Position numbers and translations under genes: made by a program | In this document: piece after piece, positions 407 through 22,685 of the stretch | How the letters are laid out: each line of letters starts with the position of its first letter | Position numbering within the stretch: the stretch's first letter is position 1 | Notes under the pieces: model-generated | What the model saw: only the letters and a program-made list of their open reading frames with translations | Databases searched by the model: none | Told to the model about the DNA's origin: nothing | Assembly: GCF_003010965.1 (NCBI RefSeq) | Contig: NZ_PGGM01000003.1 | Coordinates: forward strand, 124,001 to 188,000 | Direction: 5' to 3' | Length of the DNA stretch: 64,000 bases | From: Phyllobacterium sophorae | GTDB taxonomy: Bacteria > Pseudomonadota > Alphaproteobacteria > Rhizobiales > Rhizobiaceae

Positions 407-1402
407 TCACGGTAGAAACTCGTTCGTAAAGAACTTCGAAGCGTTCATCTCCGATTTGTCGATGCCACCGGTATCGACCATGGTTTGGATTGTCTTTTCC
501 ATCGCCTGCGAGCTTACCCGAAGTGGCTTTTGGCCGACTGTATCCTGTGTATGGAACAGCGGGATGGCTGTTTTCAGCCCCGACATCAGGCTTTCCTTGG
601 CACCCGCTTTGGGAAAGGCGACCAGCAACGCATCCACCGCCGCTTCGGGTTCCTTGACCGCATCCTCGAACGCCAGCGTCGCTGCCCGCAGGAACCGCCG
701 GATCATTTCGGGGTGTTCTTTCAATGTAGCAGTATTGACGATAAACGACGATCCGACGCTGTCGACCCCGTGATCGGCAAAAAGCATCAAGCTGACCGGC
801 TTCTTGGTGACGAATTCGATCTGGTTCCCCTGATCCGTCGCAAAACCAAGCAGGGCATCTGCTTGACCGTTGATGACTGCATTGATCTTCGTCTTCGCGT
901 CGCCAGTCACCGTTTTGTAATCGGTGTCCTTTAGTCCATTCTTCTCCAAAAACAGCGGCCAGGCTTGCGATGGGGAGTCGCCCGCCGTCATCGCGATGGT
1001 TTTACCCCTGATGTCTGACGGTTGAAGTATCTTTTTTTCACTGAGGCTAATAACTGCGAAGGGGCTGCGCTCCAGGGCCGAACCGACCGATATGACTGGC
1101 GCGCCCTTTGAAACGAGCTTCATCATCGTGGTGATGTCGGCAAAGCCAATGGTTACGTTTTCCGCCGCGACGGCCTGGACGGTCGGTCCGGAACCCTTCC
1201 CCTCCTGTACTTCCAGGTCCAGCCCCTCTTTTTCAAAGTAACCCTTTTGCTTTCCCAGTAAAATGGGAGCATGCAAACCCGTCGCATACCAGTTCAGCAT
1301 GAGCGTTACCTTGTCGAGGGATTGTGCCCTCGCCGAGGCGACGACGATCGCCGTTACCATGGCGGCAGCGATGCAGGCCTTGAGCGAATTGCCGACTTTC
1401 AT
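407..1402 (-). CDS. NMT1/THI5-like ABC transporter substrate-binding protein
   Basis: This is a periplasmic binding protein of about 331 residues in the SsuA/ThiY/NMT1 superfamily. It has a signal peptide (charged start, hydrophobic core to about residue 24, cleavage near ASARA-Q). The mature part begins with the family's typical LMLNWYATGLHAPILLGKQKGYF stretch, shortened here to its hallmark LNWY-GLHAP, followed by EGLDLEVQEGKGSG. Two adjacent ATGs exist (1405 and 1402). GGAGG sits six bases before the second, so 1402 is preferred. The gene lies between its permease (34 bases upstream) and ATPase. LNWY-type members include pyrimidine-precursor binders, so a hydroxymethylpyrimidine-like or other small heterocyclic ligand is possible, but this is inference. 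Confidence 0.88.
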   Translation of the reverse strand: MKVGNSLKACIAAAMVTAIVVASARAQSLDKVTLMLNWYATGLHAPILLGKQKGYFEKEGLDLEVQEGKGSGPTVQAVAAENVTIGFADITTMMKLVSKGAPVISVGSALERSPFAVISLSEKKILQPSDIRGKTIAMTAGDSPSQAWPLFLEKNGLKDTDYKTVTGDAKTKINAVINGQADALLGFATDQGNQIEFVTKKPVSLMLFADHGVDSVGSSFIVNTATLKEHPEMIRRFLRAATLAFEDAVKEPEAAVDALLVAFPKAGAKESLMSGLKTAIPLFHTQDTVGQKPLRVSSQAMEKTIQTMVDTGGIDKSEMNASKFFTNEFLP

Positions 1403-1436
1403 CATTCTCCTCCTATGATGATTCACACCGAATTTG

Positions 1437-2219
1437 TTAATGCACTTGCGTGGAATCCAACCTGTTGGAGACATGCCACGGCAAAAGGTATTTCTCCAAC
1501 GCGTCGATAGTCATGAAGAGAATCACCCCCATGAGGGACAGGACGATCAATGCGGCAAACATCAGCGGCAGATCGAAGTTGCCGTTGGCACGCTGCAAGA
1601 CGTAACCGATACCCGCGTTTGATCCCACGAATTCGCCGACCACTGCGCCAACGACTGCCAAGGTAACGGATACCTTCATGCTGGAAAAAATAGCCGGCAT
1701 GGCATTCGGCAGGCTAACTTTGTAGAACATCTTCCAGCGTGAGCCGCCCATCGATCTGACAAGATCGACCATGTCGGCCTCCAGTGACTTGAACCCCATG
1801 ACTGTCGAAACCACCACGGGAAAGAAACCCAGCAGAAAGGCAACGATAATCTTTGGCAAAATGCCGAAGCCGAACCAGACGACAAACAACGGCGCTATCG
1901 CGACCTTGGGAACGCTTTGGGAGAAAACAAGCAAAGGGTAGAGGTAGCTTTCGACAGTTCGCGAATATGCAATCAGCATAGCAAGCGGAACGCCGATAAG
2001 GACTGAAAGTGCAAATCCGCCGAGGGTGGCGACCAAAGTGGGAACTGCCTCTGCCAGGAGCATCGGTCCCTCGAGGACGAGTTGCTCAAGGACCTGCCAC
2101 GGCGGCGGGACAAGATAGGCCGGTACATTCAACAGCCTGACTGAAATATCCCACACGACGATGACGATGGCCACCAAGAGGATCGGTCGGAGCCAAGCTG
2201 AATTAAAAGCGTTTCGCAT
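1437..2219 (-). CDS. ABC transporter permease (SsuC/TauC/ThiX type)
   Basis: This integral membrane permease of about 260 residues belongs to the BPD_transp_1 family. Hydrophobic segments begin near residue 9 (LLVAIVIVVWDISV), and the cytoplasmic EAA loop appears as EADMVDLVRSMGGSRWKMF, with the conserved Gly, followed by LPNAMPAI. Of two in-frame ATGs six bases apart, the one at 2219 is seven bases after GGAGG, while the one at 2225 is too close. The gene follows a 65-residue ORF by 67 bases and precedes the binding protein by 34, consistent with one operon driven from the TetR-side promoter near 2540. Confidence 0.9.
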   Translation of the reverse strand: MRNAFNSAWLRPILLVAIVIVVWDISVRLLNVPAYLVPPPWQVLEQLVLEGPMLLAEAVPTLVATLGGFALSVLIGVPLAMLIAYSRTVESYLYPLLVFSQSVPKVAIAPLFVVWFGFGILPKIIVAFLLGFFPVVVSTVMGFKSLEADMVDLVRSMGGSRWKMFYKVSLPNAMPAIFSSMKVSVTLAVVGAVVGEFVGSNAGIGYVLQRANGNFDLPLMFAALIVLSLMGVILFMTIDALEKYLLPWHVSNRLDSTQVH

Positions 2220-2286
2220 ACGCATTCCTCCGGGCATTGTCTGGCAACGACTACGCCAATGCAATCGTCAGCAACTGAAGTGCCAA

Positions 2287-2484
2287 TCAAACGATTGTCC
2301 GTCCACCGTCGCCCCGAGGGCTAAATTCGTATTCACGCACTGCCGAAATGCCGCGATATCGCAGCAAATCAACAAGGCTCGTGAACACGAGTTCCTGCGA
2401 AGGGACTTGGATGATCGGCTGATCAGGACTGGCGACTGCAGATCGTTTAGACGTGCATTCGGCGGCGGACTGTTTGCTTCCCAT
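2287..2484 (-). CDS. Small 65-residue protein of unknown function, first gene of the ABC operon
   Basis: The ATG at 2484 is preceded by GGGAGGAA with seven bases of spacing, one of the best ribosome sites in the window. It lies directly downstream of a promoter and operator (2504-2542), so it is very probably translated. The product is hydrophilic, with no signal peptide or membrane segment. Its C-terminal half (VDLLRYRGISAVREYEF, then a Gly/Arg-rich tail) looks folded rather than random. I do not recognise the family. It could be a small accessory protein of the transporter or pathway, or a remnant of a longer enzyme. The position says it is co-regulated with the importer. Confidence 0.55.
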   Translation of the reverse strand: MGSKQSAAECTSKRSAVASPDQPIIQVPSQELVFTSLVDLLRYRGISAVREYEFSPRGDGGRTIV

Positions 2485-2503: not shown

Positions 2504-2521
2504 AGTAACTCAATAGTTACT
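2504..2521. promoter_or_regulatory. TetR-type operator, site 1
   Basis: This is a perfect inverted repeat, AGTAACT-CAAT-AGTTACT (7+4+7). It overlaps the -10 of the minus-strand promoter of the ABC operon and lies just upstream of the ribosome site of the first gene. Matching sites occur at 2635, 11291 and 11861. Repression by occlusion of the promoter is the simplest reading. That the divergent TetR gene encodes the binder is inferred from adjacency. Confidence 0.75.
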
Positions 2522-2542
2522 TTTTGTCTTAAGAGTTGTCAA
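2514..2542 (-). promoter_or_regulatory. Promoter of the NMT1-type ABC operon
   Basis: On the minus strand, TTGACA (2542-2537) is followed by a 17-base spacer and TAACTA (2519-2514). The -35 is a consensus match. The -10 is weak and sits inside the inverted repeat at 2504-2521, so it would be blocked by a bound repressor. Confidence 0.6.
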
Positions 2543-2634
2543 CAGTTTGTAAGAAGGTGTCCCCTGCGAATGATAAAAGCGCATAGCGTCGGCATTTTCA
2601 AAGTCGGTCCCCTTAAAACGCCTGTCACATCCTG

Positions 2635-2652
2635 GATAACTATATGGTTACG
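2635..2652. promoter_or_regulatory. TetR-type operator, site 2 (probable autoregulatory site)
   Basis: GATAACT-ATAT-GGTTACG matches the AGTAACY-N4-RGTTACT pattern at 11 of 14 half-site positions, with mismatches only in the outer bases. It lies 112 bases upstream of the TetR start codon and 114 bases from site 1, as expected for a repressor controlling its own promoter and the divergent operon. Confidence 0.5.
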
Positions 2653-2733
2653 GCACTTGGCTTGTTGTTGTATTTGTGACAAGTTAATATTCGAAAAAAG
2701 GGACTCGAGGTCTCAATTTGAAATCGGGTGTCA

Positions 2734-2748
2734 AACATGTTGCATGTT
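2734..2748. promoter_or_regulatory. Short palindrome upstream of the TetR start
   Basis: AACATG-TTG-CATGTT is a perfect 6+3+6 inverted repeat ending 15 bases before the GTG start of the TetR gene. It may be an mRNA hairpin or a site for another regulator. It does not match the AGTAAC operator. Confidence 0.3.
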
Positions 2749-2763
2749 GTTCTGGAGTGAAAA

Positions 2764-3423
2764 GTGACTGAGCAGGGAACGGCAGACCCGGAACGCAAAG
2801 CACGCGCGCCCAGCGCGCGAGCCGACGCCACAAAAAAGCGCATCTTGAGCGCGGCAATCGAACAGTTCACCTTGAAGGGACTTGCAGGCGCGAGGGTCGA
2901 CGAAATCGCCGACGCCGCTCGGGTGAACAAGCGCATGCTCTACGCCCATTTTGGCAGCAAGGAGGAACTGTGGCTCGCCGTTCTTGAGGATGCCTATAGT
3001 CGCAAGCGCAACGAAGAACGCTTACTGGAAGTCGGCTCACTGCCCCCGGAACGGGCCATGGCACTTCTCGTGGCATTCAACCTGAGGTATGTCGTTGAGC
3101 ACCCGGAGTTCGTGCGCATCCTCAACGAAGAAAACCTGCACCAGGCAAGCTATATCCGGCAAAGCCGATTTGTGAAAAGCCTTTACCCGCCGCTGCTGGA
3201 GCTGCTGGACCAAGTCCTGCTCGACGGAGTCCGCAAAGAAGTTTTCCGCGAGGGGATATCGCCGATGCAACTATACATCACGATTGTAAGTCTCGGTCAC
3301 TTCTATGTCGCCAACCAGTACACCCTTTCGACAATATTCGATGTCAATCTTATGCACTATAACGCCCTGGCGGAACGGGAAGCGCACAACATCGACGTTG
3401 TCTTAAGGTATCTGGCCAAGTGA
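2764..3423 (+). CDS. TetR/AcrR family transcriptional regulator
   Basis: This 219-residue protein is of usual TetR length. The N-terminal DNA-binding domain is at about residues 24-70, with the helix-turn-helix in VDEIADAARVNKRMLYAHFGSKEEL and the classic YAHFGSKEEL ending. The rest is a ligand-binding and dimerisation domain resembling the RutR/NicS-type C-terminal family. Translation starts at GTG, seven bases after GGAG. The gene is divergent from the ABC operon. Two copies of one inverted repeat lie in the shared intergenic region and two more at the divergent carbohydrate promoters near 11.3 and 11.86 kb, so it may be a local master repressor (inference). Confidence 0.9.
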   Translation: MTEQGTADPERKARAPSARADATKKRILSAAIEQFTLKGLAGARVDEIADAARVNKRMLYAHFGSKEELWLAVLEDAYSRKRNEERLLEVGSLPPERAMALLVAFNLRYVVEHPEFVRILNEENLHQASYIRQSRFVKSLYPPLLELLDQVLLDGVRKEVFREGISPMQLYITIVSLGHFYVANQYTLSTIFDVNLMHYNALAEREAHNIDVVLRYLAK

Positions 3424-3649
3424 ATGTTTAGCTTTGCGAATTTTGGCAAGGTCCAGAATCACATTCCCCACCCCCCGCTTTCAAAACGGTCGCGCGTCTT
3501 ACCAGCGAAAGAAGTATCTTTCTGTAACATCAGGTATTTCCTTCGCGTAGTTTCGCAAACACCTTGCCCCTTGCCCTCGTGATTGTATCCCGCAGAGCTG
3601 CAGCTGAGCTGGTTCGAGGAACGTCAATTTCCGCCCGACATTGCGTGCT

Positions 3650-4693
3650 TTAAAATTGGGGCGTGAAGCTGGGCCTTGAGAAGTTTTGCGCGTTGCGATT
3701 TGCAATACGGGCAAAATCAGACGCCGAAATACCCAGCCCTTGGATCGATTTGAGTGTTTCCCGCACCAGATAGGAACCGCCTTCGGCATCGAACGGAAAA
3801 TCGCTTGCGAACATGACATGATCGATTCCAAAGAAGTCCAGGCCGCAGCGGAGTGCGCCCGTCGCTCCCGAGAGGGCGGTATCGCCAAAATACGCCTTGA
3901 AGTAAGTCAAAGCCGGATGTCTTAGCGGGACTGGCAGCAAATCCGCATCTGACGGTGGCGTGCGCGCACCCATTTCCAACCCCCAACCCTGTTCGATGCG
4001 CCCCGCAAAGAAGGGAATCATTCCACCCATATGATGAGTTAGAATTCGAAGGTGTGGATGGCGGTCCAACAGTCCGGAGAAAACCAATCGCGACAGCGCA
4101 ACTGTGGTTTCATAAGGCCAGCCGAAGCACCACCAGATTTCGTATTTCGACTTCTTCTCGGTTGGATAGTCGGGTACCGGACCGCGGATCGGGTGTAACC
4201 AAATCGGACGCCCCGATGCGGCAAGGGTGTCCCATATGGTGAAGAATCTCGGATCATCCAAGGGAATTCCTTGCACATGTGAAGGCAACTGAAACCCAAT
4301 GGCGCCCATATCCAAAGCTCGCTGGATCTCGCTACAAGCGGCCTTGGCGTTCATGAGCGATACCCCCGCCACGAAATAGGGAAAGCGATCAGGATATTGG
4401 GCGACCAGTGCGGCCAAGCCGTCGTTCATCAGTCGCGCCAGCGTTTGAGCTTCGCTCGGATCGGCAATTTCGTCAAAGGCGGGCATGGACGGCGTGAGGA
4501 TCTGCTTGTAGCCGCAAAATTGATCCATCAAGCGGAAACGTTCATCCAAATCGTATAGGGAACGCAGCGTCATCCAGCGCTTTAACGGCCCCGATGCGTT
4601 CGAAACAGTGTTGAGTTTTGCGAAATATGCCTGCGGAAAGATGTGCGTCCAGGCATCCAGCAAATGCGGCTCCGAAGTCTGATCGTTGTCCAA
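3650..4693 (-). CDS. Amidohydrolase family protein (ACMSD/COG2159-like)
   Basis: This 347-residue TIM-barrel metallohydrolase or decarboxylase is the last gene of the carbohydrate operon. The family pattern is visible: WLHPIRGP (metal His about residue 173), LTHHMGGM (about 227) and MFASDFPFDAEGG (catalytic Asp about 304). The N-terminal strand reads DAWTHIFP, where the family usually has D-x-H-x-H, so the first metal His is replaced by Trp while the second is kept. Translation probably starts at TTG (4693) after GGGAAG; no ATG exists before residue 41. In a sugar operon it may act as a lactonase or hydrolase. Decarboxylation is the main alternative. Confidence 0.8.
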   Translation of the reverse strand: MDNDQTSEPHLLDAWTHIFPQAYFAKLNTVSNASGPLKRWMTLRSLYDLDERFRLMDQFCGYKQILTPSMPAFDEIADPSEAQTLARLMNDGLAALVAQYPDRFPYFVAGVSLMNAKAACSEIQRALDMGAIGFQLPSHVQGIPLDDPRFFTIWDTLAASGRPIWLHPIRGPVPDYPTEKKSKYEIWWCFGWPYETTVALSRLVFSGLLDRHPHLRILTHHMGGMIPFFAGRIEQGWGLEMGARTPPSDADLLPVPLRHPALTYFKAYFGDTALSGATGALRCGLDFFGIDHVMFASDFPFDAEGGSYLVRETLKSIQGLGISASDFARIANRNAQNFSRPSFTPQF

Positions 4694-4780
4694 GGTGCTT
4701 CCCTACCCTAACGTCCAACCGGACGACCTACGCATCGCCAATCCTCAGGAGGAAATCGCAAGCTACGACAGCCCTGTCGT

Positions 4781-5932
4781 CTAGCTTGCAGCATGGTAAC
4801 GATCTGAAACAGAACCTCCGCCATTGGCGGCCGCATGTTCTTCATGCGCTTGAATGGCCACGCCATCGGCGCTGAATACGTGGCAGCGGGCCGGGTCGAA
4901 ATAAACCTTGATATTTGCGCCGTGCTCCACGTTCTGCTGGCCATCCAGCGCGACGGTCAACTGCTGGCCATCGGGCGTGGTCGTATAGAGCATCGTCGCG
5001 CCGCCGAGATTCTCGACCAGATCGACATTAACGGTAGCCAGTGCGATACCCGCCTCCCTGTCGGCAACCAGATGCTCAGGCCGGATGCCAAAGGCGACCT
5101 TATCTTCTTTCGTGCCGCCCTTCAGCTGCCATGGCAGACGCATCTTATTTCCACCGACACAAAGATCAGTATGGTTGGCACTGATTTCCTCGATGCGGGC
5201 ATCAAGGAAGTTCATCTTCGGACTGCCGATAAAGCCGGCCACGAAACGGTTGACCGGGTTGTTATAGAGTTCCAAAGGCGCACCGACCTGTTCGATCCGG
5301 CCAGCGTTTAACACGACGATCTTGTCAGCCATGGTCATCGCTTCGACCTGATCGTGGGTGACATAGATCATGGTATTGCCGAGCTTGCGATGAAGGCGCG
5401 AGATTTCCACCCGCATCTGCACGCGAAGTTCCGCATCGAGGTTGGAGAGTGGTTCATCGAACAGGAAGATGCGCGGCTCGCGTACAATGGCACGACCGAT
5501 CGCAACGCGCTGACGCTGCCCGCCGGAAAGCTGCTTGGGTTTGCGTTCAAGAAGTTTCTCGATCTGCAGGATCTGCGCGGCGCGGCGCACACGCGGTTCG
5601 ATTTCAGCTTTCTTGTATCCGGCGGTTTCCAGACCAAAGGCGAGATTTTTATAGACTGACATGTGCGGATAAAGTGCATAGGACTGGAACACCATGGCGA
5701 TGCCGCGTTTGGCTGATGCCACCTCGTTCATTCGCTCCCTATCAAGAAGCAGCGCGCCACCGCTGATTTCCTCCAGCCCGGCGATCATGCGCAGCAGGGT
5801 CGACTTCCCGCAGCCCGAAGGGCCGACGAAGACGACGAATTCGCCAGGTTCAATGTTGAGGTCGATGCCGTGGATGACGTCGACAGTTCCATAGCGCTTT
5901 TCAACCTTTTCAAGAACTACACTGGTCGACAT
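4781..5932 (-). CDS. Carbohydrate ABC transporter ATP-binding protein (MalK/UgpC type)
   Basis: This 383-residue ATPase has a complete nucleotide-binding domain. Walker [10 protein letters not shown] is at residues 37-45, the Q-loop [13 protein letters not shown] near 82, the signature LSGGQ at 135-139, Walker B FLFDE at 156-160 followed by [10 protein letters not shown], and the switch His in VTHDQVEAM. The C-terminal part from about residue 240 contains the MalK-type regulatory/TOBE region (FGIRPEHL). It energises the two permeases encoded at 8093-9929 and possibly serves both Tat binding proteins of the island. It lies 34 bases downstream of the Gfo/Idh gene. Confidence 0.95.
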
Positions 5933-5966
5933 GTCCCAAATCCTCTCTTTCGACTGATCTTAGACC

Positions 5967-7040
5967 TCATCGCGTGGTTGCACGCCATTTGGCATATTTC
6001 GGGCTGTCACCCTTGATTGGAAGCGTCACTTCGCAACCCGCGTCGGAAGACTGGTAGATGGCCGTGACGAGTTCCAACGCGTCGCGCGCATCGCGACTTG
6101 TGACCGGAAGCGGGCCCTGCCCGTTCAGATGGCGGTGAAAGTGCCGCATCTGCGTCGTGAAGCGCGGGGCAACCGGCGTCCAATCTGCAATCAGGGCATC
6201 AATCTGCCCCTGGACCTGGTCGTTGGCCGCGATGATCCTCCAGGGATCCTTGCCGGGTGCATAAGGCTCATGGCTGCTCTCAAAAGTGACATTTTGAAAG
6301 TGGAGCCGCAGCCGGCTGATCTCCTCCTGAGATCCGAGCGTGCACGACAGCGAAACGAGCGCCCCACTTTGCATAAGCAAGCTGGCTGAAGCGCAATCTT
6401 CAACTTCAATATCGTTGACCCGCGTGCTGACCCGGCCGAAGACCTTCGACACTGGCCCCATCAGATGCATCAGCATGTCATGTTGATGCAGCGCATGTGT
6501 CACCAGCACGCCGCCAAGTTCCGTCTCCCATTTGCCGCGCCAGGGCACAGCATAGTATTCCGGAGTCCGTAGCCAGAAAGTCTCTACCGATCCAAGATAA
6601 GGCTTTCCGGCCACGCCGGCCGCGATGATACGTTTTGCCTTCTCGATGCCGTCGCCATAACGGTACTGGAAGATTGGCATCAATACCCCTTTTGCGACCC
6701 TCTCTGCTTGCATGATCGCATCAACGCCAGCGAGCGATCCAGTCAATGGCTTTTCACAGATCACGTGCTTGCCGGCGCGAAGCGCCGCAATGACCTGTTC
6801 AAGGTGGATCCCGGGCGGTGTACAGATATCGATGATATCGATGGTCTCGTCGGTCAGGAGTTCGTCGAAGGATGCGGTACGGCGAGCGATGCCGAATTCG
6901 TCGCCAACCTCTTTGAGCCGCACCTCGTTGAGATCGCAGATCGCGGTGATCTTGAACATGTCCGGATGAGGCAGGTAGCCTTCGATGATATGCGATCTGC
7001 CGATGCCGCAGCCAACGACGGCGACTGTTTTGATACTCAT
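5967..7040 (-). CDS. Gfo/Idh/MocA family oxidoreductase
   Basis: This 357-residue NAD(P)-dependent dehydrogenase has the Rossmann motif VAVVGCGIGRSHI (residues 6-18). The EKP motif with catalytic Lys is at 96-98 (ICEKPL), and a His-rich active-site segment THALHQHD is near 181-188. Family members oxidise or reduce sugars and cyclitols at a ring hydroxyl, often making 3-keto sugars. The start is one base downstream of the stop of a second family member (7042-8058), so the pair may act together. The substrate is unknown. The operon has its own importer, so it is likely the imported sugar or a direct derivative. Confidence 0.92.
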   Translation of the reverse strand: MSIKTVAVVGCGIGRSHIIEGYLPHPDMFKITAICDLNEVRLKEVGDEFGIARRTASFDELLTDETIDIIDICTPPGIHLEQVIAALRAGKHVICEKPLTGSLAGVDAIMQAERVAKGVLMPIFQYRYGDGIEKAKRIIAAGVAGKPYLGSVETFWLRTPEYYAVPWRGKWETELGGVLVTHALHQHDMLMHLMGPVSKVFGRVSTRVNDIEVEDCASASLLMQSGALVSLSCTLGSQEEISRLRLHFQNVTFESSHEPYAPGKDPWRIIAANDQVQGQIDALIADWTPVAPRFTTQMRHFHRHLNGQGPLPVTSRDARDALELVTAIYQSSDAGCEVTLPIKGDSPKYAKWRATTR

Positions 7041-7041
7041 T

Positions 7042-8058
7042 TCAATATCTTTCCTGCTTGCTCTCGGCCATTTGCTGTGCGGTCAACGCAAGTTCCATTG
7101 CCGCAAAGCAGCGCTCCTGTGACATGGCGGTTTGAGTGCGATCGCGTATATCGGCCAAAAACTGCTGTCCGAAAGGTAATTCGAGCTTTGAGCAGTCAAC
7201 ATGCTGCACACCCTGCCGGTCCGTCAAAAACAGGTGATCGCCGCCGGGCCGCCCCGCGAGGTCGACGGCCTTGCGGATTTCAATAGCGCCGGTCGTTCCG
7301 ATAATGAAAAGCCGGCCATCGCCCCAGGTCGGCATCCCGTCTGGCGTGAACCAGTCAACATGGACCGTCCCCGTGGCTTTGCCGGTGGTCAGGTGAATAT
7401 CGCCGCTGTCCTGAAGCTCAGGCCGATCGGCATTGGCGTGATTGCCGATACTGGCCGAAAGGACGCGCGCTTTATCGGAACCGGTAAAGAACAGGAATTG
7501 CTCACATTGATGCGAAGCAATGTCGGTGAGAATGCCACCATATTCGGCGCGGCGGAAAAACCAGTCGGGACGCGTTTCTCGTCTAAGCCGATGCGGGCCA
7601 AGGCCCGCCGTATGCACAACCTCGCCGATAGCACCGGCGGCAACAAGCTGCCCGGCCCTGACCGTCGCCCGGCTCTCAAAATGTTCGGAATAAAGCACTG
7701 AGAAGATTTGCGCCGTTTCCGCCTGCACGGCACGGACGGCCTTGAGCTGATCGAAACTGACCATCGCTGGTTTGTCGACCAGCACATCTTTGCCGTGGCG
7801 CATCGCGGATACTGCCAGCTCCGCTCGCCGGGCCGGGATCGCCGCGGAAGTAATGAGGCTGATGGACCGGTTTTCAAGAATCTCCTGCAGAGATGCAGTT
7901 CGCGGCACATCGGCGTAGGTGGCAGAAAATTCTGCCGCAAGCCCATCATCTTCTTCGTGGAAAGCGACGAGCCTGGCCCCGGCCCGCAACAAGCAATTGA
8001 CCTGGCCGTAGATGTGATTGTGATTAAGGCCGACGGCCGCAAAAAGCAGTTCACTCAT
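7042..8058 (-). CDS. Gfo/Idh/MocA family oxidoreductase, divergent member
   Basis: This 338-residue protein has the two-domain family layout. The nucleotide-binding strand reads AAVGLNHNHIYGQ instead of the usual GxGxxG, and the catalytic motif is DKP at 95-97 rather than EKP; both are known variations in the family. A later segment (GILTDIASHQCEQFLFFTG) matches the conserved helix near the active site. The ATG at 8058 follows AAGG at moderate distance. It is co-transcribed with the neighbouring oxidoreductase, and both may catalyse sequential redox steps on one sugar. Confidence 0.88.
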   Translation of the reverse strand: MSELLFAAVGLNHNHIYGQVNCLLRAGARLVAFHEEDDGLAAEFSATYADVPRTASLQEILENRSISLITSAAIPARRAELAVSAMRHGKDVLVDKPAMVSFDQLKAVRAVQAETAQIFSVLYSEHFESRATVRAGQLVAAGAIGEVVHTAGLGPHRLRRETRPDWFFRRAEYGGILTDIASHQCEQFLFFTGSDKARVLSASIGNHANADRPELQDSGDIHLTTGKATGTVHVDWFTPDGMPTWGDGRLFIIGTTGAIEIRKAVDLAGRPGGDHLFLTDRQGVQHVDCSKLELPFGQQFLADIRDRTQTAMSQERCFAAMELALTAQQMAESKQERY

Positions 8059-8092
8059 GGATTTCTATACCTTGAAAATTGAAACGGCCCCG

Positions 8093-8977
8093 TCACCGCT
8101 TCATTCCCGTTGTGGCGATGCCCTCGATGAGCAGGCGCTGGAAGAACAGGAAGAAGAAAAAGACGGGAACGAGTGACAGCGTCGACATTGCGAAAAGCCC
8201 ACCCCAATCCGACGTGCTGCTCGAGTCGACGAATGTGCGCAGCCCCAGCTGGATCGTGTAGTTGTTCATGTCATTGAGATAGATCAGCGGACCGAAGAAA
8301 TCGTCCCATGTCCAGATAAACGAGAAGATTGCAGCCGTCGCCAGAACCGGCAAGGAGAGCGGGAGCATGATTTTCCAGTAGATCCGCCATGGACTGCATC
8401 CATCCATCATCGCGGCCTCGTCGAGTTCGCGCGGGATGCCGCGGAAGAACTGCACCATCAAAAAGATGAAGAATGCATCCGATGCGAGGAACTTGGGCAC
8501 CACCAGTGGCAGGTAGGTGTCCACCCAGCCAAGATTAAGAAAGAGCACATATTGGGGGATCAGCGTCACATGATAGGGAATCATGAGCGTGCCGAGCATA
8601 ATTGCAAACCAGAAGTTGCGGCCCTTGAACCTTAGTCGGGCGAACGCGTAAGCTGCAAGCGAACAGGCCATGACGTTGCCCGTGACCGTCAAAACCGAGA
8701 CGACAAGCGAGTTCCAGAAGAAACGGCCAAAGGATATGTCGAGCCCGAACCAACCGCGGATGTAGGAGCTGAAATCCACCGACGATGGCAAAAGCGACGT
8801 CGAGGAGAAAATTTCGTCTTCCGGCCGTATGGAGGCCGAGACCATCCAGAGCAAAGGATAAATCATCGCAATGGATGCTGCGATCAGCGCGGCGTGAATG
8901 AGCACGCTTGCCATCGGGTTGCGTCCGCTCACGGGTGGCGGCGGTGCCGTCACGGAGGTCATCGGCGTGTCAGTCAT
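8093..8977 (-). CDS. Carbohydrate ABC transporter permease (UgpE/AraQ/MalG type)
   Basis: This 294-residue inner-membrane permease has a first hydrophobic segment at about residues 25-46. The EAA loop reads ELDEAAMMDGCSPWRIYWKIMLPLSLP near residues 190-215, with the invariant Gly. The start overlaps the end of the upstream permease gene by eight bases, indicating translational coupling. It forms a heterodimeric channel with the protein encoded at 8970-9929, using the ATPase at 4781. Confidence 0.95.
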   Translation of the reverse strand: MTDTPMTSVTAPPPPVSGRNPMASVLIHAALIAASIAMIYPLLWMVSASIRPEDEIFSSTSLLPSSVDFSSYIRGWFGLDISFGRFFWNSLVVSVLTVTGNVMACSLAAYAFARLRFKGRNFWFAIMLGTLMIPYHVTLIPQYVLFLNLGWVDTYLPLVVPKFLASDAFFIFLMVQFFRGIPRELDEAAMMDGCSPWRIYWKIMLPLSLPVLATAAIFSFIWTWDDFFGPLIYLNDMNNYTIQLGLRTFVDSSSTSDWGGLFAMSTLSLVPVFFFFLFFQRLLIEGIATTGMKR

Positions 8978-9929
8978 CGTAATGTACCCAGTAGCGCGAT
9001 GTGAGGAAGGAGAAGGCGGTGAAGATTGCGATGATCACCACCAGGATCCAGGCCAGCGCGGAGGCGTAACCCATGCGGAAATTTCCGAATGCCTCCTGAT
9101 AGAGGTAGAGCGTATAAAACAGCGTCGAGTTGATTGGTCCGCCGGTGCCACCGGAAATGATAAAGGCCGGCGTGAAGGCTTTGAATGCATCGATCGTCTG
9201 GACAACGGCATTGAAAAAGATCACGGGCGTGAGAAGCGGCAACGTAATCTTGTAGAACTGGCGGAATTTGGAGGCGCCGTCGAGGCTGGCGGCTTCATAC
9301 ATGTCGGTGGGAATTTGCCGCAGACCGGCGAGGAAGATGATCATCGGTGAGCCGAATTGCCACACGCTAAGGGCGACAAGCGTATAGATCGAATAGTTCG
9401 GATGGGAAATCCAGCTTGGTCCTTCGATGCCGAACTGTGACAGAGCTGCGTTGACCAGCCCGTCGCCGGCAAACAGTTGCCGCCACAAAACGGCAATGGC
9501 AACACTGCCGCCAAGAAGCGAGGGCAGATAGAAGATGGCGCGATAAAAAGTCAGCCCTTTCACGCCGCGGTTAAGGGCTATAGCGACGAGAAGTGCGAAG
9601 GTGAGCTTAAAGGGCACGGAAAGAACCACATAGGTGAGGGTTACCTGCATGGCTGCCGCGAATTTCGGATCTGCGGTGGCGATCCGGACATAGTTCGCCG
9701 CACCCGTCCATTGCGGAGCGCGGATCAGGTCGAAATCTGTGAAAGATAGATAAAGTGACACCAGGGCCGGTCCGAGGGTCAGCCCGAAGAAGCCTAAGAG
9801 CCAGGGCAAAAGGAATAGATATCCTGGTGCGTTGCTGGCCCAAAGGCGTGCCAGACGTCCCCTGGCCCTCACACTCTGGTGTCTTTCTACAGCTATGTCG
9901 GCGGCAGATGCGTGCGTTGCCGTGTTCAT
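8970..9929 (-). CDS. Carbohydrate ABC transporter permease (UgpA/MalF type)
   Basis: This permease of about 319 residues has a cytoplasmic N-terminal stretch, then a membrane segment from about residue 37 (YLFLLPWLLGFFGLTLGPAL). The EAA loop reads DMYEAASLDGASKFRQFYKITLPLLTP. Two starts are possible: ATG at 9929, chosen here, or GTG at 9935, which overlaps the stop of the binding-protein gene. Either way the genes are tightly coupled. It is the partner of the next permease. Confidence 0.93.
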   Translation of the reverse strand: MNTATHASAADIAVERHQSVRARGRLARLWASNAPGYLFLLPWLLGFFGLTLGPALVSLYLSFTDFDLIRAPQWTGAANYVRIATADPKFAAAMQVTLTYVVLSVPFKLTFALLVAIALNRGVKGLTFYRAIFYLPSLLGGSVAIAVLWRQLFAGDGLVNAALSQFGIEGPSWISHPNYSIYTLVALSVWQFGSPMIIFLAGLRQIPTDMYEAASLDGASKFRQFYKITLPLLTPVIFFNAVVQTIDAFKAFTPAFIISGGTGGPINSTLFYTLYLYQEAFGNFRMGYASALAWILVVIIAIFTAFSFLTSRYWVHYDD

Positions 9930-9934
9930 GCGCA

Positions 9935-11227
9935 CTAGCCCCGGCTGACGATGCGCGAGATCTCTTCAGCCAACAACTTACCGCCATCGGCTGCCGATAG
10001 CTGGCCGAAGCCGACCTGCTCTGCGACGTTGCGCAACGCCAGTTCAGCTTCGCCGGCACCAGCTGGCGGCGGCGGCGGCAGCGCACCAGCAAGATCACCA
10101 AGACCAGTGACGTAGTCGAGTGCTACCTTGCCTTGGGCGTCGAGCTTGGATGCAATGACTTCACGCGTTGCAGCCGATTCCGGTATGCCGCGTTCAACAC
10201 CGAGAACGAGGGCTGCCTCCGGATCCTTGATGAAGAAATTAATATAGGCGACAGCCTGGTCGATCGCCTTCGACTGGGCCGACACGGAAAAGAACATGGA
10301 GGGCTTGCGATAGTGCCCGCCCTTGGAGTCTGCCGCGATACGCGGGTGGTTGGTGAGGCCGAGCTTGTCCTTGTTGATCGCTTGATAACCGACGAACTGA
10401 TTGGAATGAGCAAAGGCTGCAGCCGAGCGGGCGAGCGAAACGGTGTTTGTCTCGATGTCGTTCTTGTCGAGCGCCTGAACGTCTGGCGGAACACAGGCAC
10501 CGGCCTGGCGGAATTTGCTCCACATTTCAAACCATTCGGAGGCATCATTGTGATCGAAGGCGATCTTGCCTTCAGCCGTATAGAGAGCCTTGCCCCGCTG
10601 GCGTAGCCAGTTTTCCAGGAGCGGCTCCACGACGCTGCCATCGGCGATGCCATACATGCCTTTACGCTTGCCCGCCTTGGTAATTTCCGCGCCCATGCGG
10701 GCGAATTCTTCCCACGTCGTCGCCTGAGTTGGCAAAGGAACGCCGGCTTGCTCGAATGCGGAGACATTCAGGACTGTGGTTGCGGCGTTCGCGCCGAGAC
10801 TGACCCCGTAAAAATGCCCGTTGACGCTCCCCCCATCGATCTGTGTTTTGTCGAAATCGTCGATTTGCAATTTCGCCGGCATATAGCTTTCCAGCGGTGC
10901 CAGCGCTCCGCGCTGCGCATATTCGACGATGTAGCGATAGTCCATCTGGATGATATCGGGTGCATTGCGGCCGGCGACCTGCGTTGCAAGGCGTGGCCAG
11001 TAATCCGTCCACCCCAGGAATTCGCCATTGACGGTCGTGCCTGCATTCTTTGTCTGAAAGAGTTGGGAAACTTTGTTGGTGCGATCCGCCCGTGCTTGCG
11101 AGCCCCACCAAAGGAGGCGAAGACGGGTATCGGCTGCAAAAGAAGTACCCCCGCCCGCACCGGTCGTTGACAATGACAGAAACGCGGCTCCTCCCGCGAT
11201 GAAATTGCGTCTGCTCACACGTAGCAT
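9935..11227 (-). CDS. Tat-exported carbohydrate ABC substrate-binding protein
   Basis: This 430-residue family 1 extracellular solute-binding protein is the first gene of the minus-strand operon. The N-terminus carries a twin-arginine signal (SRRNFI at residues 5-10, then a hydrophobic stretch and a site near SFAAD), so it may be exported folded. The ATG at 11227 follows GGAGGAGGAACAGGTG. It is a clear paralog of the protein encoded at 22686-23978: same length, and aligned motifs such as RLRLLWWGSQ versus RLRAMWWGSN and LATQVAGR versus LATQMAGR. The promoter and a TetR-type operator lie 64-110 bases upstream. The ligand is unknown, probably an oligo- or modified sugar. Confidence 0.93.
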   Translation of the reverse strand: MLRVSRRNFIAGGAAFLSLSTTGAGGGTSFAADTRLRLLWWGSQARADRTNKVSQLFQTKNAGTTVNGEFLGWTDYWPRLATQVAGRNAPDIIQMDYRYIVEYAQRGALAPLESYMPAKLQIDDFDKTQIDGGSVNGHFYGVSLGANAATTVLNVSAFEQAGVPLPTQATTWEEFARMGAEITKAGKRKGMYGIADGSVVEPLLENWLRQRGKALYTAEGKIAFDHNDASEWFEMWSKFRQAGACVPPDVQALDKNDIETNTVSLARSAAAFAHSNQFVGYQAINKDKLGLTNHPRIAADSKGGHYRKPSMFFSVSAQSKAIDQAVAYINFFIKDPEAALVLGVERGIPESAATREVIASKLDAQGKVALDYVTGLGDLAGALPPPPPAGAGEAELALRNVAEQVGFGQLSAADGGKLLAEEISRIVSRG

Positions 11228-11290
11228 CACCTGTTCCTCCTCCTGTTGGAACGCCCTCCCGAACGTTCCGCGCATGTTTCCCTTGCAACA

Positions 11291-11308
11291 AATAACTAAT
11301 TAGTTACA
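11291..11308. promoter_or_regulatory. TetR-type operator, site 3
   Basis: AATAACT-AATT-AGTTACA matches 12 of 14 half-site positions of the perfect site at 2504. Its core TAACT-AATT-AGTTA is a fully symmetric 14-mer. It lies immediately downstream of the -10 of the binding-protein promoter and 64 bases before the start codon. Confidence 0.7.
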
Positions 11309-11337
11309 AGCTATGTTGAAAGCGGCGAGAGAGTCAA
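11309..11337 (-). promoter_or_regulatory. Promoter of the minus-strand carbohydrate operon
   Basis: On the minus strand, TTGACT (11337-11332), a 17-base spacer and ATAGCT (11314-11309) fit a sigma70 promoter with a fair -35 and weak -10. The initiation point would fall inside the adjoining operator at 11291-11308. Confidence 0.5.
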
Positions 11338-11831
11338 GCGGTTGTGTGGTGAACCAATCCTCGTTGGGCTTCAAGGCGCGAATGTAGGGCACAACGTCAC
11401 CGACGAAACGAGCGAACAAGCCGCCCCGCGCGCCTGCAGGGGAACCAAAATCGCCCGCTCCTTGCACAGTTGAGAACGGCATGGGCGCCAAGCTATCGCC
11501 AAGCGCGATGGCAAAAAAACGCATTTTCTACCGCTGTTTCACATAAAGGTGCAATTCACGCGGCTCTCCCGGGAAGCTTGGGCAACAGTTTTGTACAGCC
11601 GAGCGGGCGACTGGCCCCGGTAGACCCAGGCTCGCGGACATATTTGCGATCCCGCACGGGCAGCGGACTTTCGCTCTGTTCGGCTGTTCCACCTTTCAAA
11701 TCACTGCACCCTGGCATCGGTGTTTGACCACGACCACATCGAAACGCACAATCTGCAAAATGGCAATGGCGCTCTTGCCCGTCAGATGCTCATCCGTTCG
11801 CCGCTTGTTTTCGCGACATTTCGTTTTTTTG

Positions 11832-11860
11832 TTGACATATGCGCTTTTGCTCTGTCATCA
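11832..11860 (+). promoter_or_regulatory. Promoter of the plus-strand oxidoreductase/enolase operon
   Basis: A consensus TTGACA at 11832-11837 is followed by a 17-base spacer and a poor -10 (TCATCA, 11855-11860). A perfect inverted-repeat operator starts at the next base. A weak -10 plus operator at the start site suggests tight control. Confidence 0.5.
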
Positions 11861-11878
11861 AGTAACCGTTTGGTTACT
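11861..11878. promoter_or_regulatory. TetR-type operator, site 4
   Basis: This perfect inverted repeat, AGTAACC-GTTT-GGTTACT (7+4+7), has the same architecture as site 1 at 2504. It overlaps the expected transcription start of the plus-strand operon, 64 bases before its first start codon. The same operator-to-ATG distance (64 bases) applies at site 3 on the other side. Confidence 0.75.
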
Positions 11879-11941
11879 GATTATGAAAAGCGCGGCCCTG
11901 GCTGCCGCTTCCACAATCGACCCCATGCAGGGAGGAAAGCA

Positions 11942-13090
11942 ATGGCGCGTCTTGGAATCATTCTACACGGGGTTACGGGGCGCATGGGATACAATCAGCA
12001 TCTCGTGCGCTCCATACTTGCCATCAGGGATCAGGGCGGGCTGGCGCTACAATCGGGAGAACGTCTCGAAATCGATCCAATCATTGTTGGCCGCAACCGC
12101 GCCAAGATTGAGCAACTTGCCCGCAGGCACGCCATAGAGCGCTGGTCGACGGACATCGATGCGGCCCTGGCGGACCCTCGCGATACTGTCTTTTTTGATG
12201 CAGGCACCACCCTCATGCGTGCCGGGCTGATCGGCCGGGCGCTGGACGCCGGCAAACATGTCTACTGCGAAAAACCGATATCGGACGATCTGGGCATCGC
12301 AATCCAGCTGGCCAAAAAGGCGCGCGCATCCGGTCTCAAGCATGGCGTCGTCCAGGACAAGTTGTTTCTTCCGGGGCTGCGCAAGCTCGCAATGCTGCGC
12401 GACTCAGGCTTCTTCGGCAAGATCCTCTCCGTGCGCGGTGAGTTCGGCTATTGGGTGTTCGAAGGCAATTGGGGCGTGCCGTCGCAGCGCCCCTCTTGGA
12501 ACTACCGAAAGGCCGATGGCGGCGGCATCATCCTCGATATGCTGTGCCATTGGCGCTATGTTCTGGACAACCTGTTCGGCGAAGTCCGGGCCGTCTCCTG
12601 CCTCGGCGCCACACACGTCCCAGCGCGGATCGATGAGAACGGCAAGAGCTATGGCTGCGATACCGACGATGCGGCTTACGCGACCTTCGAACTTGAAGGC
12701 GGCATCGTGGCACAGATCAACTCCTCCTGGGCCGTCCGTGTCCGCCGCGACGACCTTGTCACCTTCCAGGTTGACGGCACCCACGGCTCAGCCGTCGCCG
12801 GGCTGACGAAATGCTGGACGCAGCATCGCGTTAACACACCAAAACCGGTCTGGAATCCTGATCAGCCGCAAACGATCGACTTCTACAAGACCTGGGATGA
12901 GGTTCCCGACACCCAGCTTTTCGACAATGGCTTCAAGGCGCAATGGGACATGTTCCTTCGCCATGTCGCCGAAGATGCCCCCTGGCCCTATGGGCTCGAA
13001 GCCGGCGCCAAGGGTGTCCAACTTGCCGAACTCGGGTTGAAATCCTGGGCGGAACGGCGCTGGCTTGATGTTCCAACCCTGGAGTTCTAG
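11942..13090 (+). CDS. Gfo/Idh/MocA family oxidoreductase
   Basis: This 382-residue dehydrogenase is the first gene of the plus-strand operon. The frame is open from 11720, but the ATG at 11942 is preceded by GGGAGGAAAGCA and lies after the promoter, so it is the start. The Rossmann segment is LHGVTGRMGYNQH near residues 8-20. The EKP motif follows as YCEKPI (about 103-106). The C-terminal domain includes GGGIILDMLCHW, with the His of the active-site helix. It is four bases upstream of the DUF993 gene. The probable role is sugar or sugar-acid oxidation as the first or second step of the pathway. Confidence 0.9.
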   Translation: MARLGIILHGVTGRMGYNQHLVRSILAIRDQGGLALQSGERLEIDPIIVGRNRAKIEQLARRHAIERWSTDIDAALADPRDTVFFDAGTTLMRAGLIGRALDAGKHVYCEKPISDDLGIAIQLAKKARASGLKHGVVQDKLFLPGLRKLAMLRDSGFFGKILSVRGEFGYWVFEGNWGVPSQRPSWNYRKADGGGIILDMLCHWRYVLDNLFGEVRAVSCLGATHVPARIDENGKSYGCDTDDAAYATFELEGGIVAQINSSWAVRVRRDDLVTFQVDGTHGSAVAGLTKCWTQHRVNTPKPVWNPDQPQTIDFYKTWDEVPDTQLFDNGFKAQWDMFLRHVAEDAPWPYGLEAGAKGVQLAELGLKSWAERRWLDVPTLEF

Positions 13091-13093
13091 GCG

Positions 13094-14257
13094 ATGACCA
13101 CAATCAATCTGCCGCTAGCGGGGCAAATTACGCCCTATACGCTCACCGGTACACCGATACCGCTTGCACGGCGTGACGCGAAATCATTTCCGCGCGTGGT
13201 CTTCGCTGCCGCCCATGTTGTCGCCGACCCTCTCGCCGACAACGATCCATGGCTGACGCCTGCAATCGATTGGGAGCGCACGCTTGCCTTCCGTCACCGG
13301 CTGTGGGATCTGGGCCTTGGCGTTGCCGAAGCAATGGACACAGCGCAACGGGGCATGGGCCTTGGCTGGGCGGAAGCACAGGAATTGATCAAGCGGTCCC
13401 TCGCGGAGGCGCGCACGCGCGGCGACACACTGATTGCTTGTGGTGCTGGCACAGATCATTTGGCCCCTGGACCAGACGTGACGCTTGATATGATCATCCG
13501 GGCCTACGAGGAACAGATCAGCATCGTGGAGGCCGCGGGTGGCCGGATCATTTTGATGGCGAGCCGGGCCCTGGCATCGGCTGCCGAAGGTCCGGACGAC
13601 TACGTCAAGATCTATGATCGCATTCTGTCCCAGGTCCGCGAGCCAGTGATCATCCATTGGCTTGGCGAAATGTTCGATCCAGCGTTGGAAGGCTATTGGG
13701 GCAATCGGGATCATCTCAAGGCGATGGACACGTGTCTCGACGTCATCGCTGCCCATGCCGCCAAGGTCGACGGGATCAAGGTCTCGCTATTGTCCAAGGA
13801 AAAGGAAATCGCCATGCGACGCCGCCTGCCAGAGGGCGTGCGCATGTATACCGGTGACGACTTCAACTACGCAGAACTGATCGCGGGTGATGAAGTTGGC
13901 CATTCCGATGCGCTGCTCGGCATCTTTGATGCGATCGCACCGGCCGCCTCAATGGCGATGGAGGCACTTGGCGGTGGCCGCGAAGCCGAGTTTTTCAATC
14001 TCCTCAATCCGACAGTTCCTCTGTCGCGGCACATCTTCAAGGCCCCGACGCGGTTCTACAAGACCGGCGTTGTTTTTCTCGCCTATCTCAATGGCTTGCA
14101 GGATCATTTTGCCATGATTGGCGGGCAGCAAAGCGCGCGATCACTTGCCCATCTTGCTGAGCTGTTTCGACTGGCCGATCAGGCGCGGGTCCTGTCCGAT
14201 CCCGATCGCGCCATCGAGCGGATGCGCCGCATCCTCGCCGTTCACGGCGTCGGCTGA
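13094..14257 (+). CDS. DUF993 family protein (dihydrodipicolinate synthase/aldolase-like TIM barrel)
   Basis: This 387-residue protein matches the DUF993 family, distant relatives of class I lyases such as dihydrodipicolinate synthase. Visible family features include the N-terminal PRVVFAAAHVVADP, the segment GTDHLAPG, the motif HWLGEMFDP, and IKVSLLSKEKE near residue 230, where a Schiff-base Lys would be expected. Family members sit in sugar-catabolic clusters, and an aldolase or retro-aldol cleavage of a keto acid is plausible. The downstream enolase-type dehydratase starts six bases later, which fits a dehydratase/aldolase pair producing and splitting a 2-keto-3-deoxy acid (inference). Confidence 0.85.
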   Translation: MTTINLPLAGQITPYTLTGTPIPLARRDAKSFPRVVFAAAHVVADPLADNDPWLTPAIDWERTLAFRHRLWDLGLGVAEAMDTAQRGMGLGWAEAQELIKRSLAEARTRGDTLIACGAGTDHLAPGPDVTLDMIIRAYEEQISIVEAAGGRIILMASRALASAAEGPDDYVKIYDRILSQVREPVIIHWLGEMFDPALEGYWGNRDHLKAMDTCLDVIAAHAAKVDGIKVSLLSKEKEIAMRRRLPEGVRMYTGDDFNYAELIAGDEVGHSDALLGIFDAIAPAASMAMEALGGGREAEFFNLLNPTVPLSRHIFKAPTRFYKTGVVFLAYLNGLQDHFAMIGGQQSARSLAHLAELFRLADQARVLSDPDRAIERMRRILAVHGVG

Positions 14258-15684: not shown

Positions 15685-15707
15685 TGCAACAGGGAGGAAA
15701 TCCGACG

Positions 15708-16529
15708 ATGCAGTCCCAAGGCCTATCCATCAACCTTGCCACTATTCGCGAACAATGCGGTTTCGCGCAAGCGGTTGACATCTGCCTGCAACACGGCATC
15801 ACCGCAATCGCGCCCTGGCGCGAGCAGGTTGCTGCAATCGGTTTGAACGAGGCGGCAAATATCGTGCACTCCAATGAGTTGCGGTTGACAGGCCTCTGCC
15901 GGGGCGGCTTCTTTCCCGCCGCCAGTTTCGACGACCGGCAAAAGGCGCTGGACGATAATCGGCGCGCGATCGATGAGGCCGCCACGCTCGGCGCAGATTG
16001 CCTGGTGCTCGTTGTTGGCGGCCTGCCGGGCGGTTCGCGGAATCTCGACGAGGCACGCAAGATGGTCGCCGATGGCATCTCGGCCGTTCTTCCGCATGCA
16101 CGCCAGGCAAATGTGCCGCTCGCCATAGAACCGCTGCATCCCATGTATGCCGCCGACCGCTCATGTGTGAATACGCTTGGCCAGGCGCTCGATATCTGCG
16201 AGCTGGTAGGAGAAGGCGCCGGTGTCGCGGTCGACGCCTATCATGTTTGGTGGGATCCCGACCTTGCGCAGCAGGTTGCGCGAGCCGGACAGATGAATGC
16301 CATCCTCGCCCACCACATTTGTGACTGGCTTGTTCCAACTGCACACATGTTGACGGATCGCGGCATGATGGGCGACGGCGTGATCGACTTGCCGGGCCTG
16401 CGCCGTATGATCGAAGCGGCGGGCTTTCACGGCGCGCAGGAGGTTGAGATCTTTTCGGACAATTGGTGGGCACGCCCGGCGCAGGAGGTCATTGCGACGT
16501 GCGTTGGACGATATCAGGCGTGCTGCTGA
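15708..16529 (+). CDS. Sugar phosphate isomerase/epimerase (xylose isomerase-like TIM barrel)
   Basis: This 273-residue AP-endonuclease-2/xylose-isomerase-like protein begins at the ATG at 15708, which follows AGGGAGGAAA by seven bases; the frame is open slightly further upstream, inside the enolase gene. The divalent-metal tetrad is complete: Glu141 (AIEPLHP), Asp176 (VDAYHVWWD), His203 (AHHICDW) and Glu247 (EVEIFSD). Such proteins isomerise or epimerise ketoses or, paired with Gfo/Idh enzymes, handle 3-keto sugars. The operon context with oxidoreductases on both sides favours the latter as a hypothesis. Confidence 0.88.
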   Translation: MQSQGLSINLATIREQCGFAQAVDICLQHGITAIAPWREQVAAIGLNEAANIVHSNELRLTGLCRGGFFPAASFDDRQKALDDNRRAIDEAATLGADCLVLVVGGLPGGSRNLDEARKMVADGISAVLPHARQANVPLAIEPLHPMYAADRSCVNTLGQALDICELVGEGAGVAVDAYHVWWDPDLAQQVARAGQMNAILAHHICDWLVPTAHMLTDRGMMGDGVIDLPGLRRMIEAAGFHGAQEVEIFSDNWWARPAQEVIATCVGRYQACC

Positions 16530-22536: not shown

Positions 22537-22548
22537 GCCGCAAATGTT

Positions 22549-22591
22549 ACGCAAATTACGCAAATTTGCAAGATATAAACAACTTCTTGCA
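22549..22591. promoter_or_regulatory. Repeat cluster, probable LacI operator region
   Basis: Two perfect tandem copies of ACGCAAATT (22549-22566) run into the palindrome GCAAATTTGC (22560-22569). That overlaps a second inverted repeat, TGCAAGA-N11-TCTTGCA (22567-22591). All lie between the divergent LacI and binding-protein genes. Which element is the functional operator cannot be told from sequence alone. Confidence 0.5.
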
Positions 22592-22685
22592 TCATATCGG
22601 TTTTTTGCATAGGATTTGATCTGAAACTTCGCCCCGTCAGACGCCGGAGGAGCGCAGCGGGTCGGCAATGACAGGGAGGAATGTC

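Follow-up and report, generated by a model that had tools for sequence, protein, structure and literature searches.

The DNA analysed here, referred to as the window, is a 64,000-nucleotide stretch of the Phyllobacterium sophorae genome (contig NZ_PGGM01000003.1, positions 124,001 to 188,000). It carries an intact tetR gene beside a divergent NMT1/THI5-type importer operon, ~9 kb from two divergent sugar-type operons (Table 1). The left sugar-type operon encodes an ABC transporter and oxidoreductases, and the right one begins with an oxidoreductase, called GFO3 here, followed by a DUF993 protein. Copies of one palindromic operator lie in both places: sites 2504 and 2635 in the gap that separates tetR from the importer, and sites 11291 and 11861 at the promoters of the two sugar operons. 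The subject of this analysis is the relation between the TetR protein, these four sites and the operons next to them.

All four sites named in the initial annotation were confirmed (mismatches to the pattern AGTAACYNNNNRGTTACT are given in Table 1), and a fifth match with 3 mismatches was found at 48957. These 5 matches in the window compare with 1.34 expected, and 5 were reached in 3 of 100 shuffles. Across the whole genome (6,354,559 bases in 49 contigs), the only two perfect matches to AGTAACYNNNNRGTTACT are those at 2504 and 11861, and the four sites make up 4 of the 17 places that match the core GTAACYNNNNRGTTAC with at most one mismatch. The reversed pattern is commoner genome-wide than the pattern itself (62 versus 10 for AGTAACYNNNNRGTTACT, 752 versus 225 for GTAACYNNNNRGTTAC and 45 versus 23 for RTAACYRNNYRGTTAY, a tighter consensus derived from the matrix described below).

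A 22-bp matrix was built from 83 distinct sites upstream of GFO3 homologues, all from other genomes. The four sites rank first to fourth in the window (30.0 for 11291, 28.7 for 11861, 19.2 for 2504 and 16.4 for 2635), and the fifth-best score within the 64 kb is 3.0; the training sites themselves span 20.0 to 31.5. Because these training sites were collected by the core pattern with at most one mismatch, the outer matrix letters are partly built in, and the parts free of collection bias are the inner R and Y, the A/G at position 1 and the flanks. Elsewhere in the genome there are 13 places one mismatch from GTAACYNNNNRGTTAC, 11 of which were scored with the matrix, reaching a maximum of 12.3. 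Exact matches to RTAACYRNNYRGTTAY number three in the 6.35-Mb genome, at 2635, 11291 and 11861, while site 2504 is one mismatch off, with a C at core position 7 whose matrix frequency is 0.00. The genome counts show that the motif is rare, and together with the matrix they rule out chance palindromes. As a separate observation, a pair of neighbouring sites that each depart from the consensus at one position was found on contig C9 of the same genome (70121-70152; about 6122-6153 of locus L273), between a putative class A beta-lactamase gene, judged from the letters, and a small open reading frame on the opposite strand.

The distribution of the operator in other genomes was followed at 86 GFO3 loci from two sources. 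Among 394 genomes searched in the same family, 53 (the own genome included) gave 55 matches, of which the 54 outside the own genome were taken and one, L227, was dropped below the 60% cut; the second source was a set of TetR loci (L055-L099; 45 of 49 used), 12 of the 45 being without GFO3. When up to one mismatch is allowed, the 1.25 kb upstream of GFO3 contains an operator at 71 of the 72 loci with an NKRM-helix TetR, at 0 of 5 loci whose TetR has another helix (SKPMIY, NKALIY, SKPLIY twice, SKPLLY) and at 2 of 9 loci without a TetR in the stretch covered. In all 14 of the closest loci (L174-L187), which belong to a family (f1) that is presumably the Rhizobiaceae, TetR is encoded between the divergent genes for a substrate-binding protein and GFO3 and is flanked by operators, which are placed like 11291 and 11861 in the window.

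The same association was found around the regulators themselves. Among 124 distinct TetRs (from 139 read, the window TetR included), the operator occurs within 400 bp of 72 of the 100 with an NKRM[LIM]Y helix and of none of the 24 others, and six control palindromes gave 0, 1, 2, 0, 0 and 0 of 124. The loci and TetR sequences are related, and these counts are not independent events. Two TetRs from Clostridia metagenome-assembled genomes (MAGs; L102 and L103) share 36-37% identity with the window TetR. They have its helix, NKRMLYAHF, and operators flank their genes, so the pairing of helix and operator extends across phyla. The window TetR belongs to the NKRM group, combining the helix NKRMLYAHF with an operator (RTAACYRNNYRGTTAY) at 11861 of the GFO3-DUF993 operon; among 17 TetR matches in its own genome, NKRM in any frame occurs at the window locus only. 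The operator is thus kept with the TetR in the large majority of relatives, with few exceptions, and this conservation supports the proposal of the initial annotation that the TetR at 2764-3423 is the common repressor of the importer and the sugar operons.

Some loci show other arrangements. At L188, L194, L195, L197 and L199, two NKRM-type TetRs are encoded close together, the nearer one 4-6 kb upstream of an operator-bearing GFO3. Genome G128 has a GFO3 with an operator and no TetR in the 10.6 kb covered (L208); on another of its contigs, a TetR with operators lies between a substrate-binding protein and an oxidoreductase designated GFO4 (L228).

The operator can also stand apart from the regulator. 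In 13 Acetobacteraceae-type genomes GFO3 has no TetR gene as its neighbour, and all 13 carry a perfect core site ~1.1 kb upstream of GFO3 (69-71% identity). This persistence of the operator at an operon that no TetR adjoins is in line with the proposed regulon. TetR-GFO3 distances were measured in 5 of the 13: the two genes are on different contigs in 3, 123 kb apart in 1 and 5 kb apart in 1. A second, more distant GFO3 (55-56%), present in three of these genomes, has no site. In L056, where TetR is still near GFO3, a gene of the dihydrodipicolinate synthase family lies between site and GFO3 (by Pfam, one case). Operator retention at GFO3 with a distant TetR offers a likely precedent for control in trans.

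The sugar operons had been described as lacking a regulator of their own. This holds for intact genes, none of which lies in the interval; it does not hold for decayed ones, as the remains of a native tetR gene are found there. An nhmmer profile of the interval from the substrate-binding protein gene through tetR to GFO3 in nine relatives (L174-L182) gave three collinear matches in the window interval (E 1.1e-32, 1.8e-6 and 2.3e-32), and its best match was the intact tetR (2762-3351, E 5.3e-48). When interval 11354-11830 was searched alone, the relic matches had E 6.7e-8 (C-terminal part, to 11829, extending slightly beyond the native stop codon into the promoter) and 6.8e-6 (helix-turn-helix part), and the best of 500 chunk-shuffles reached E 2.3. 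With tblastn the corresponding values were 1.8e-4 and 0.022. The relic amounts to ~434 bases, against 684 coding bases in L182, and with gaps included its identity is 34-37%, a value that lies at 70-93% between native genes; the two operators that flank it have kept 88-94%. In global alignment the identity is ~76% for real and shuffled sequences alike, so that this measure is useless and the relic is backed only by the score (114, with 100 shuffles going no higher than 78) and by the nhmmer profile. The gene between the two operators is clearly broken and is the putative original repressor of the sugar operons. A genome search for a surviving native-type TetR elsewhere found none; the best intact match is the window TetR itself, at 43%, and the original regulator is represented in this genome by the relic only.

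The window TetR is a member of the TetR/AcrR family (PF00440, E 2.4e-14; PF17938, E 6.1e-37). In a tree of the 124 TetRs it joins 43 Acetobacteraceae-type sequences with support 100/100. Five of the 43 are MAGs named only Rhodospirillales or Alphaproteobacteria, and the rest bear the names Acetobacteraceae or Roseomonadaceae. The 40 native sequences form a separate clade (98/90), and a group of the window TetR with these 40 was rejected by the approximately unbiased (AU) test (p-AU 0.000247). In the best 120 of 565 protein matches listed, identity is at most 65% apart from the own entry (99%), and searches of 151 and 397 genomes, which partly overlap, gave no non-window match above 50% among the matches listed. 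GFO3 has a different profile: it is 88-91% identical to its nine closest f1-family relatives (family search) and 63-71% identical to Acetobacteraceae-type homologues, one short piece reaching 74%. A comparable GFO3 was not found in seven other genomes of the genus listed (E at most 1e-130). Judged by GFO3 identity, the operon is of the f1-family type; by its place in the tree, the window TetR is not the operons' native gene and its ancestry is foreign. Regulator and regulated genes therefore differ in ancestry, the former by tree and AU test and the latter by the 88-91% identity of GFO3.

Taken together, these lines of evidence make it probable that the four sites are the predicted operators of one TetR, that the protein encoded at 2764-3423 took the place of the native repressor by xenologous replacement, and that importer and sugar operons form one regulon. 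In the proposed mechanism, a TetR dimer would bind the RTAACY...RGTTAY half-sites, over the -10 element or immediately after it, and block transcription of the importer, of the ABC transporter/oxidoreductase operon and of the oxidoreductase-DUF993 operon, and through site 2635 probably of its own gene. Binding of a dimer just downstream of the promoter hexamers, where it blocks RNA polymerase, is the usual mode of action of TetR proteins. Release of the repressor would come from a small molecule, for which the imported substrate and an intermediate of the pathway are plausible candidates. As to its history, a tetR of Acetobacteraceae type and equal DNA specificity would have arrived next to the operon pair, and the local tetR would have turned redundant and decayed in place with its operators kept. 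We infer control of the old targets by the newcomer from the shared operator and recognition helix.

Table 1. Features of the TetR-operator locus (positions in the window unless another locus is named)
Feature	Position	Strand	Remarks
NMT1/THI5-type substrate-binding protein, importer	410-1411	-	Pfam PF09084, E 2.3e-47
Importer permease, BPD_transp_1	1437-2264	-	Pfam PF00528, E 1.6e-33
65-residue open reading frame	2287-2484	-	starts importer operon; without Pfam family
Operator 1, importer promoter	2504-2521		perfect 7+4+7 palindrome; 0 mismatches to AGTAACYNNNNRGTTACT
Operator 2, upstream of tetR	2635-2652		3 mismatches to AGTAACYNNNNRGTTACT; core equals RTAACYRNNYRGTTAY exactly
TetR, intact (TetR_N + TetR_C_29)	2764-3423	+	recognition helix NKRMLYAHF
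Amidohydrolase, Amidohydro_2 (Pfam)	3650-4693	-	adjoins tetR; only a candidate for regulon membership
Left sugar-type operon: ABC ATPase, 2 GFO/IDH/MocA oxidoreductases, 2 permeases, substrate-binding protein	4781-11227	-	
Left-operon leader and operator region, aligned to relatives	11183-11353		nhmmer E 1.1e-32
Operator 3, left-operon promoter	11291-11308		2 mismatches to AGTAACYNNNNRGTTACT; top matrix score in window
Native TetR relic, helix-turn-helix part	11471-11540	+	nhmmer E 1.8e-6
Native TetR relic, C-terminal part	11647-11830	+	full match 11647-11970, E 2.3e-32, reaches right-operon promoter and operator 11861
Operator 4, right-operon promoter	11861-11878		perfect 7+4+7 palindrome; 0 mismatches to AGTAACYNNNNRGTTACT
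GFO3, first oxidoreductase of right operon	11942-13090	+	
DUF993 protein, right operon	13094-14257	+	Pfam PF06187, E 4.5e-187
Enolase-superfamily protein (MR_MLE_C) and TIM-barrel protein (AP_endonuc_2), right operon	14263-16529	+	
LacI-family regulator	21505-22668		end of same gene cluster
Operators flanking Clostridia MAG tetR, L102	9814-9829, 10658-10673		
Operators flanking Clostridia MAG tetR, L103	9811-9826, 10625-10640		

Three of the sites had been placed at or just after the -10 element of TTGACA/T-N17 promoters. The -35-like hexamers (TTGACA/TTGACT) are indeed present upstream of three sites, but the -10 hexamers at N17 (TAACTA, ATAGCT and TCATCA) are poor matches, so the promoter positions are tentative. 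At the two sugar promoters the equal spacing noted earlier was reproduced, with 64 from operator edge to ATG on both sides (11878 to 11942 and 11291 to 11227); the left-hand value presumes 11227 as the start of the substrate-binding protein, rather than the in-frame upstream ATG at 11275. At the other end of the locus, sites 2504 and 2635 provide the TetR with palindromic operators near its own gene.

Several observations weigh against the interpretation. The groups compared in the AU test were picked after the tree was seen, and the branch of the window TetR is long (0.93), with support of 92/69 for its position as sister to, versus inside, the 43 Acetobacteraceae-type sequences; for this reason the group is claimed and the donor is not. 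The alternative of a fast-evolving, relocated native gene is rejected by the same AU test, with the same two reservations of long branch and post-tree groups. As for conservation, an operator is missing from the 400-bp surroundings of 28 of the 100 NKRM TetRs. In 24 of these cases it lies at the GFO3 operon elsewhere in the genome (13 Acetobacteraceae-type, 10 in the five paired-TetR f1-family loci, and L016 of genome G037), and for the remaining four (L007, L010, L014 and L017) no operator was found. L007 is the same locus of G043 as L213, the sole miss among the 72 NKRM GFO3 loci, where an NKRM TetR beside GFO3 has no operator even at 2 mismatches. The importer-side sites are also weaker family matches than the sugar-operon sites: 2504, at 19.2, scores just below the training minimum of 20.0, and 2635 scores 16.4. 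Finally, NMT1 genes like those of the window occur in 4 of the 101 loci searched, and its amidohydrolase and 65-residue open reading frame in 0 of the 101. Because NMT1 relatives are so rare at the relatives' loci, the predicted importer link rests mainly on the two importer-side sites. Some gene-order support comes from L243, where a TetR gene, an operator and a divergent gene for an NMT1-type binding protein adjoin genes for an NMT1-type permease and ATPase in one run with GFO3, DUF993 and a TIM-barrel gene.

The best-surviving of three alternatives, which we nevertheless hold to be improbable, is that the sugar operons are free of TetR control, sites 11291 and 11861 being undecayed leftovers or being kept for their overlap with the promoters. 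Both sites do overlap promoter-like sequence and the native gene is clearly broken. However, the two sites fit the family consensus exactly while the neighbouring gene has lost about one third of its length and is eroded in the remainder, and at 11861 the sole core difference from the closest relatives (L176 and L180-L182) makes the palindrome perfect. An intact TetR with the same helix is also encoded only 8-9 kb away.

That intact TetR might instead serve the importer only, with a paralogous TetR encoded on contig C10 binding the sugar-operon operators. At 42% identity to a native TetR, the C10 protein is nearly as close as the window TetR (43%). Its recognition helix is SKRMIY rather than NKRM, though, and no site with 2 or fewer mismatches occurs in the 19.5 kb around its gene, which adjoins a TRAP transporter (DctM, DctP), with no gene of the DUF993 pathway found nearby. 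Its long branch (1.68) also falls outside both operator-bearing clades, and this division of labour appears very improbable. Least probable of the three is main control of the sugar operons by the LacI-family regulator with the palindromes minor: its gene stands at the end of the same cluster and a LacI gene recurs in the related cluster L228, but the former adjoins DUF2264 and 2-hydroxyacid dehydrogenase genes, and in L228 LacI coexists with a TetR that lies between the substrate-binding protein and the rightward genes and is flanked by operators. Joint control by LacI and TetR may occur.

If the TetR at 2764-3423 is the common repressor, a second genome may have followed a similar course. 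In G037, the sugar-operon interval has no TetR and keeps both operators; no relic is detectable in it (best E 0.0088, at the promoter). A TetR search of this genome (E up to 1e-15) gave one gene only. It closes an NMT1-enolase cluster ~19 kb from GFO3, where the one site found is weak (2 mismatches) and close to the point at which the NMT1 genes begin. It is possible, and is put forward here tentatively, that the operator serves as a fixed socket for repressors of different ancestry, that the swap would have rewired the input of the sugar operons to the ligand of the importer-linked repressor, and that G037 is a parallel case.

The proteins of the window have few characterized counterparts. 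By sequence, the nearest solved structure to the window TetR is 3npi, which matches residues 23-217 and is named 'TetR family regulatory protein' only; the likeness is a sequence match. The closest structures to the DUF993 protein and GFO3 carry the entry names 'Uncharacterized protein' and 'Oxidoreductase', respectively, and the enolase-like protein had no match among solved structures. A literature search for entries 4DNH and 3OQB gave no paper, and no mention of DUF993 was found in the literature searched. The left-operon permeases (8093-9935) were named from their translations. A second DUF993 gene, 57% identical, lies on contig C11 of the same genome (565024-566175) near a LacI-like gene, and of 19 further genomes searched in the genus, 18 have a single DUF993 gene with 56-58% identity.

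Related cases are described in the sections of three papers drawn on here. In lactic acid bacteria, xenologous replacement of transcription factors has been inferred from complementary regulator distributions among genomes (PMC3616900). The present locus resembles that case in that one family member displaces another over the same subsystem, and differs in that the relic of the displaced gene is still in place and both operators are retained. In Proteobacteria, the non-orthologous TetR regulators FadP and LiuQ control fatty acid and branched-chain amino acid pathways (PMC5343134), and there too a TetR takes over a catabolic pathway in some lineages; their counterparts (PsrA and FadR; LiuR) come from other groups or families, whereas here the old and the new regulator share a motif. 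Local regulators of sugar operons with palindromic operators are likewise a feature of LacI-family sugar regulons (PMC4052901). In the sucrose example of that work, however, non-orthologous regulators have clearly different motifs, unlike the ~43-44% identical regulators that go with the same motif here.

No published case combining a relic with retained operators was found in the literature outside most subscription journals, as far as partial texts show. No paper on a DUF993/GFO3 TetR regulon was found by title or start of abstract, and none on TetR with Roseomonas and dihydrodipicolinate synthase. Regulator swaps within a family between lineages are already known, and a visible intermediate state was not found in print, within the partial texts covered.

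With a dead original, intact operators and a newcomer within 9 kb, the locus makes a direct test possible. It raises the question of whether a ~44% identical repressor holds the old operators and changes the response of the operons. The analysis also gives the uncharacterised DUF993 pathway a candidate regulon, together with a DNA motif and a signature in the recognition helix. If the operator does act as a fixed socket, the sugar operons of P. sophorae, once under a local sensor, would now answer to the ligand of an importer-linked repressor.

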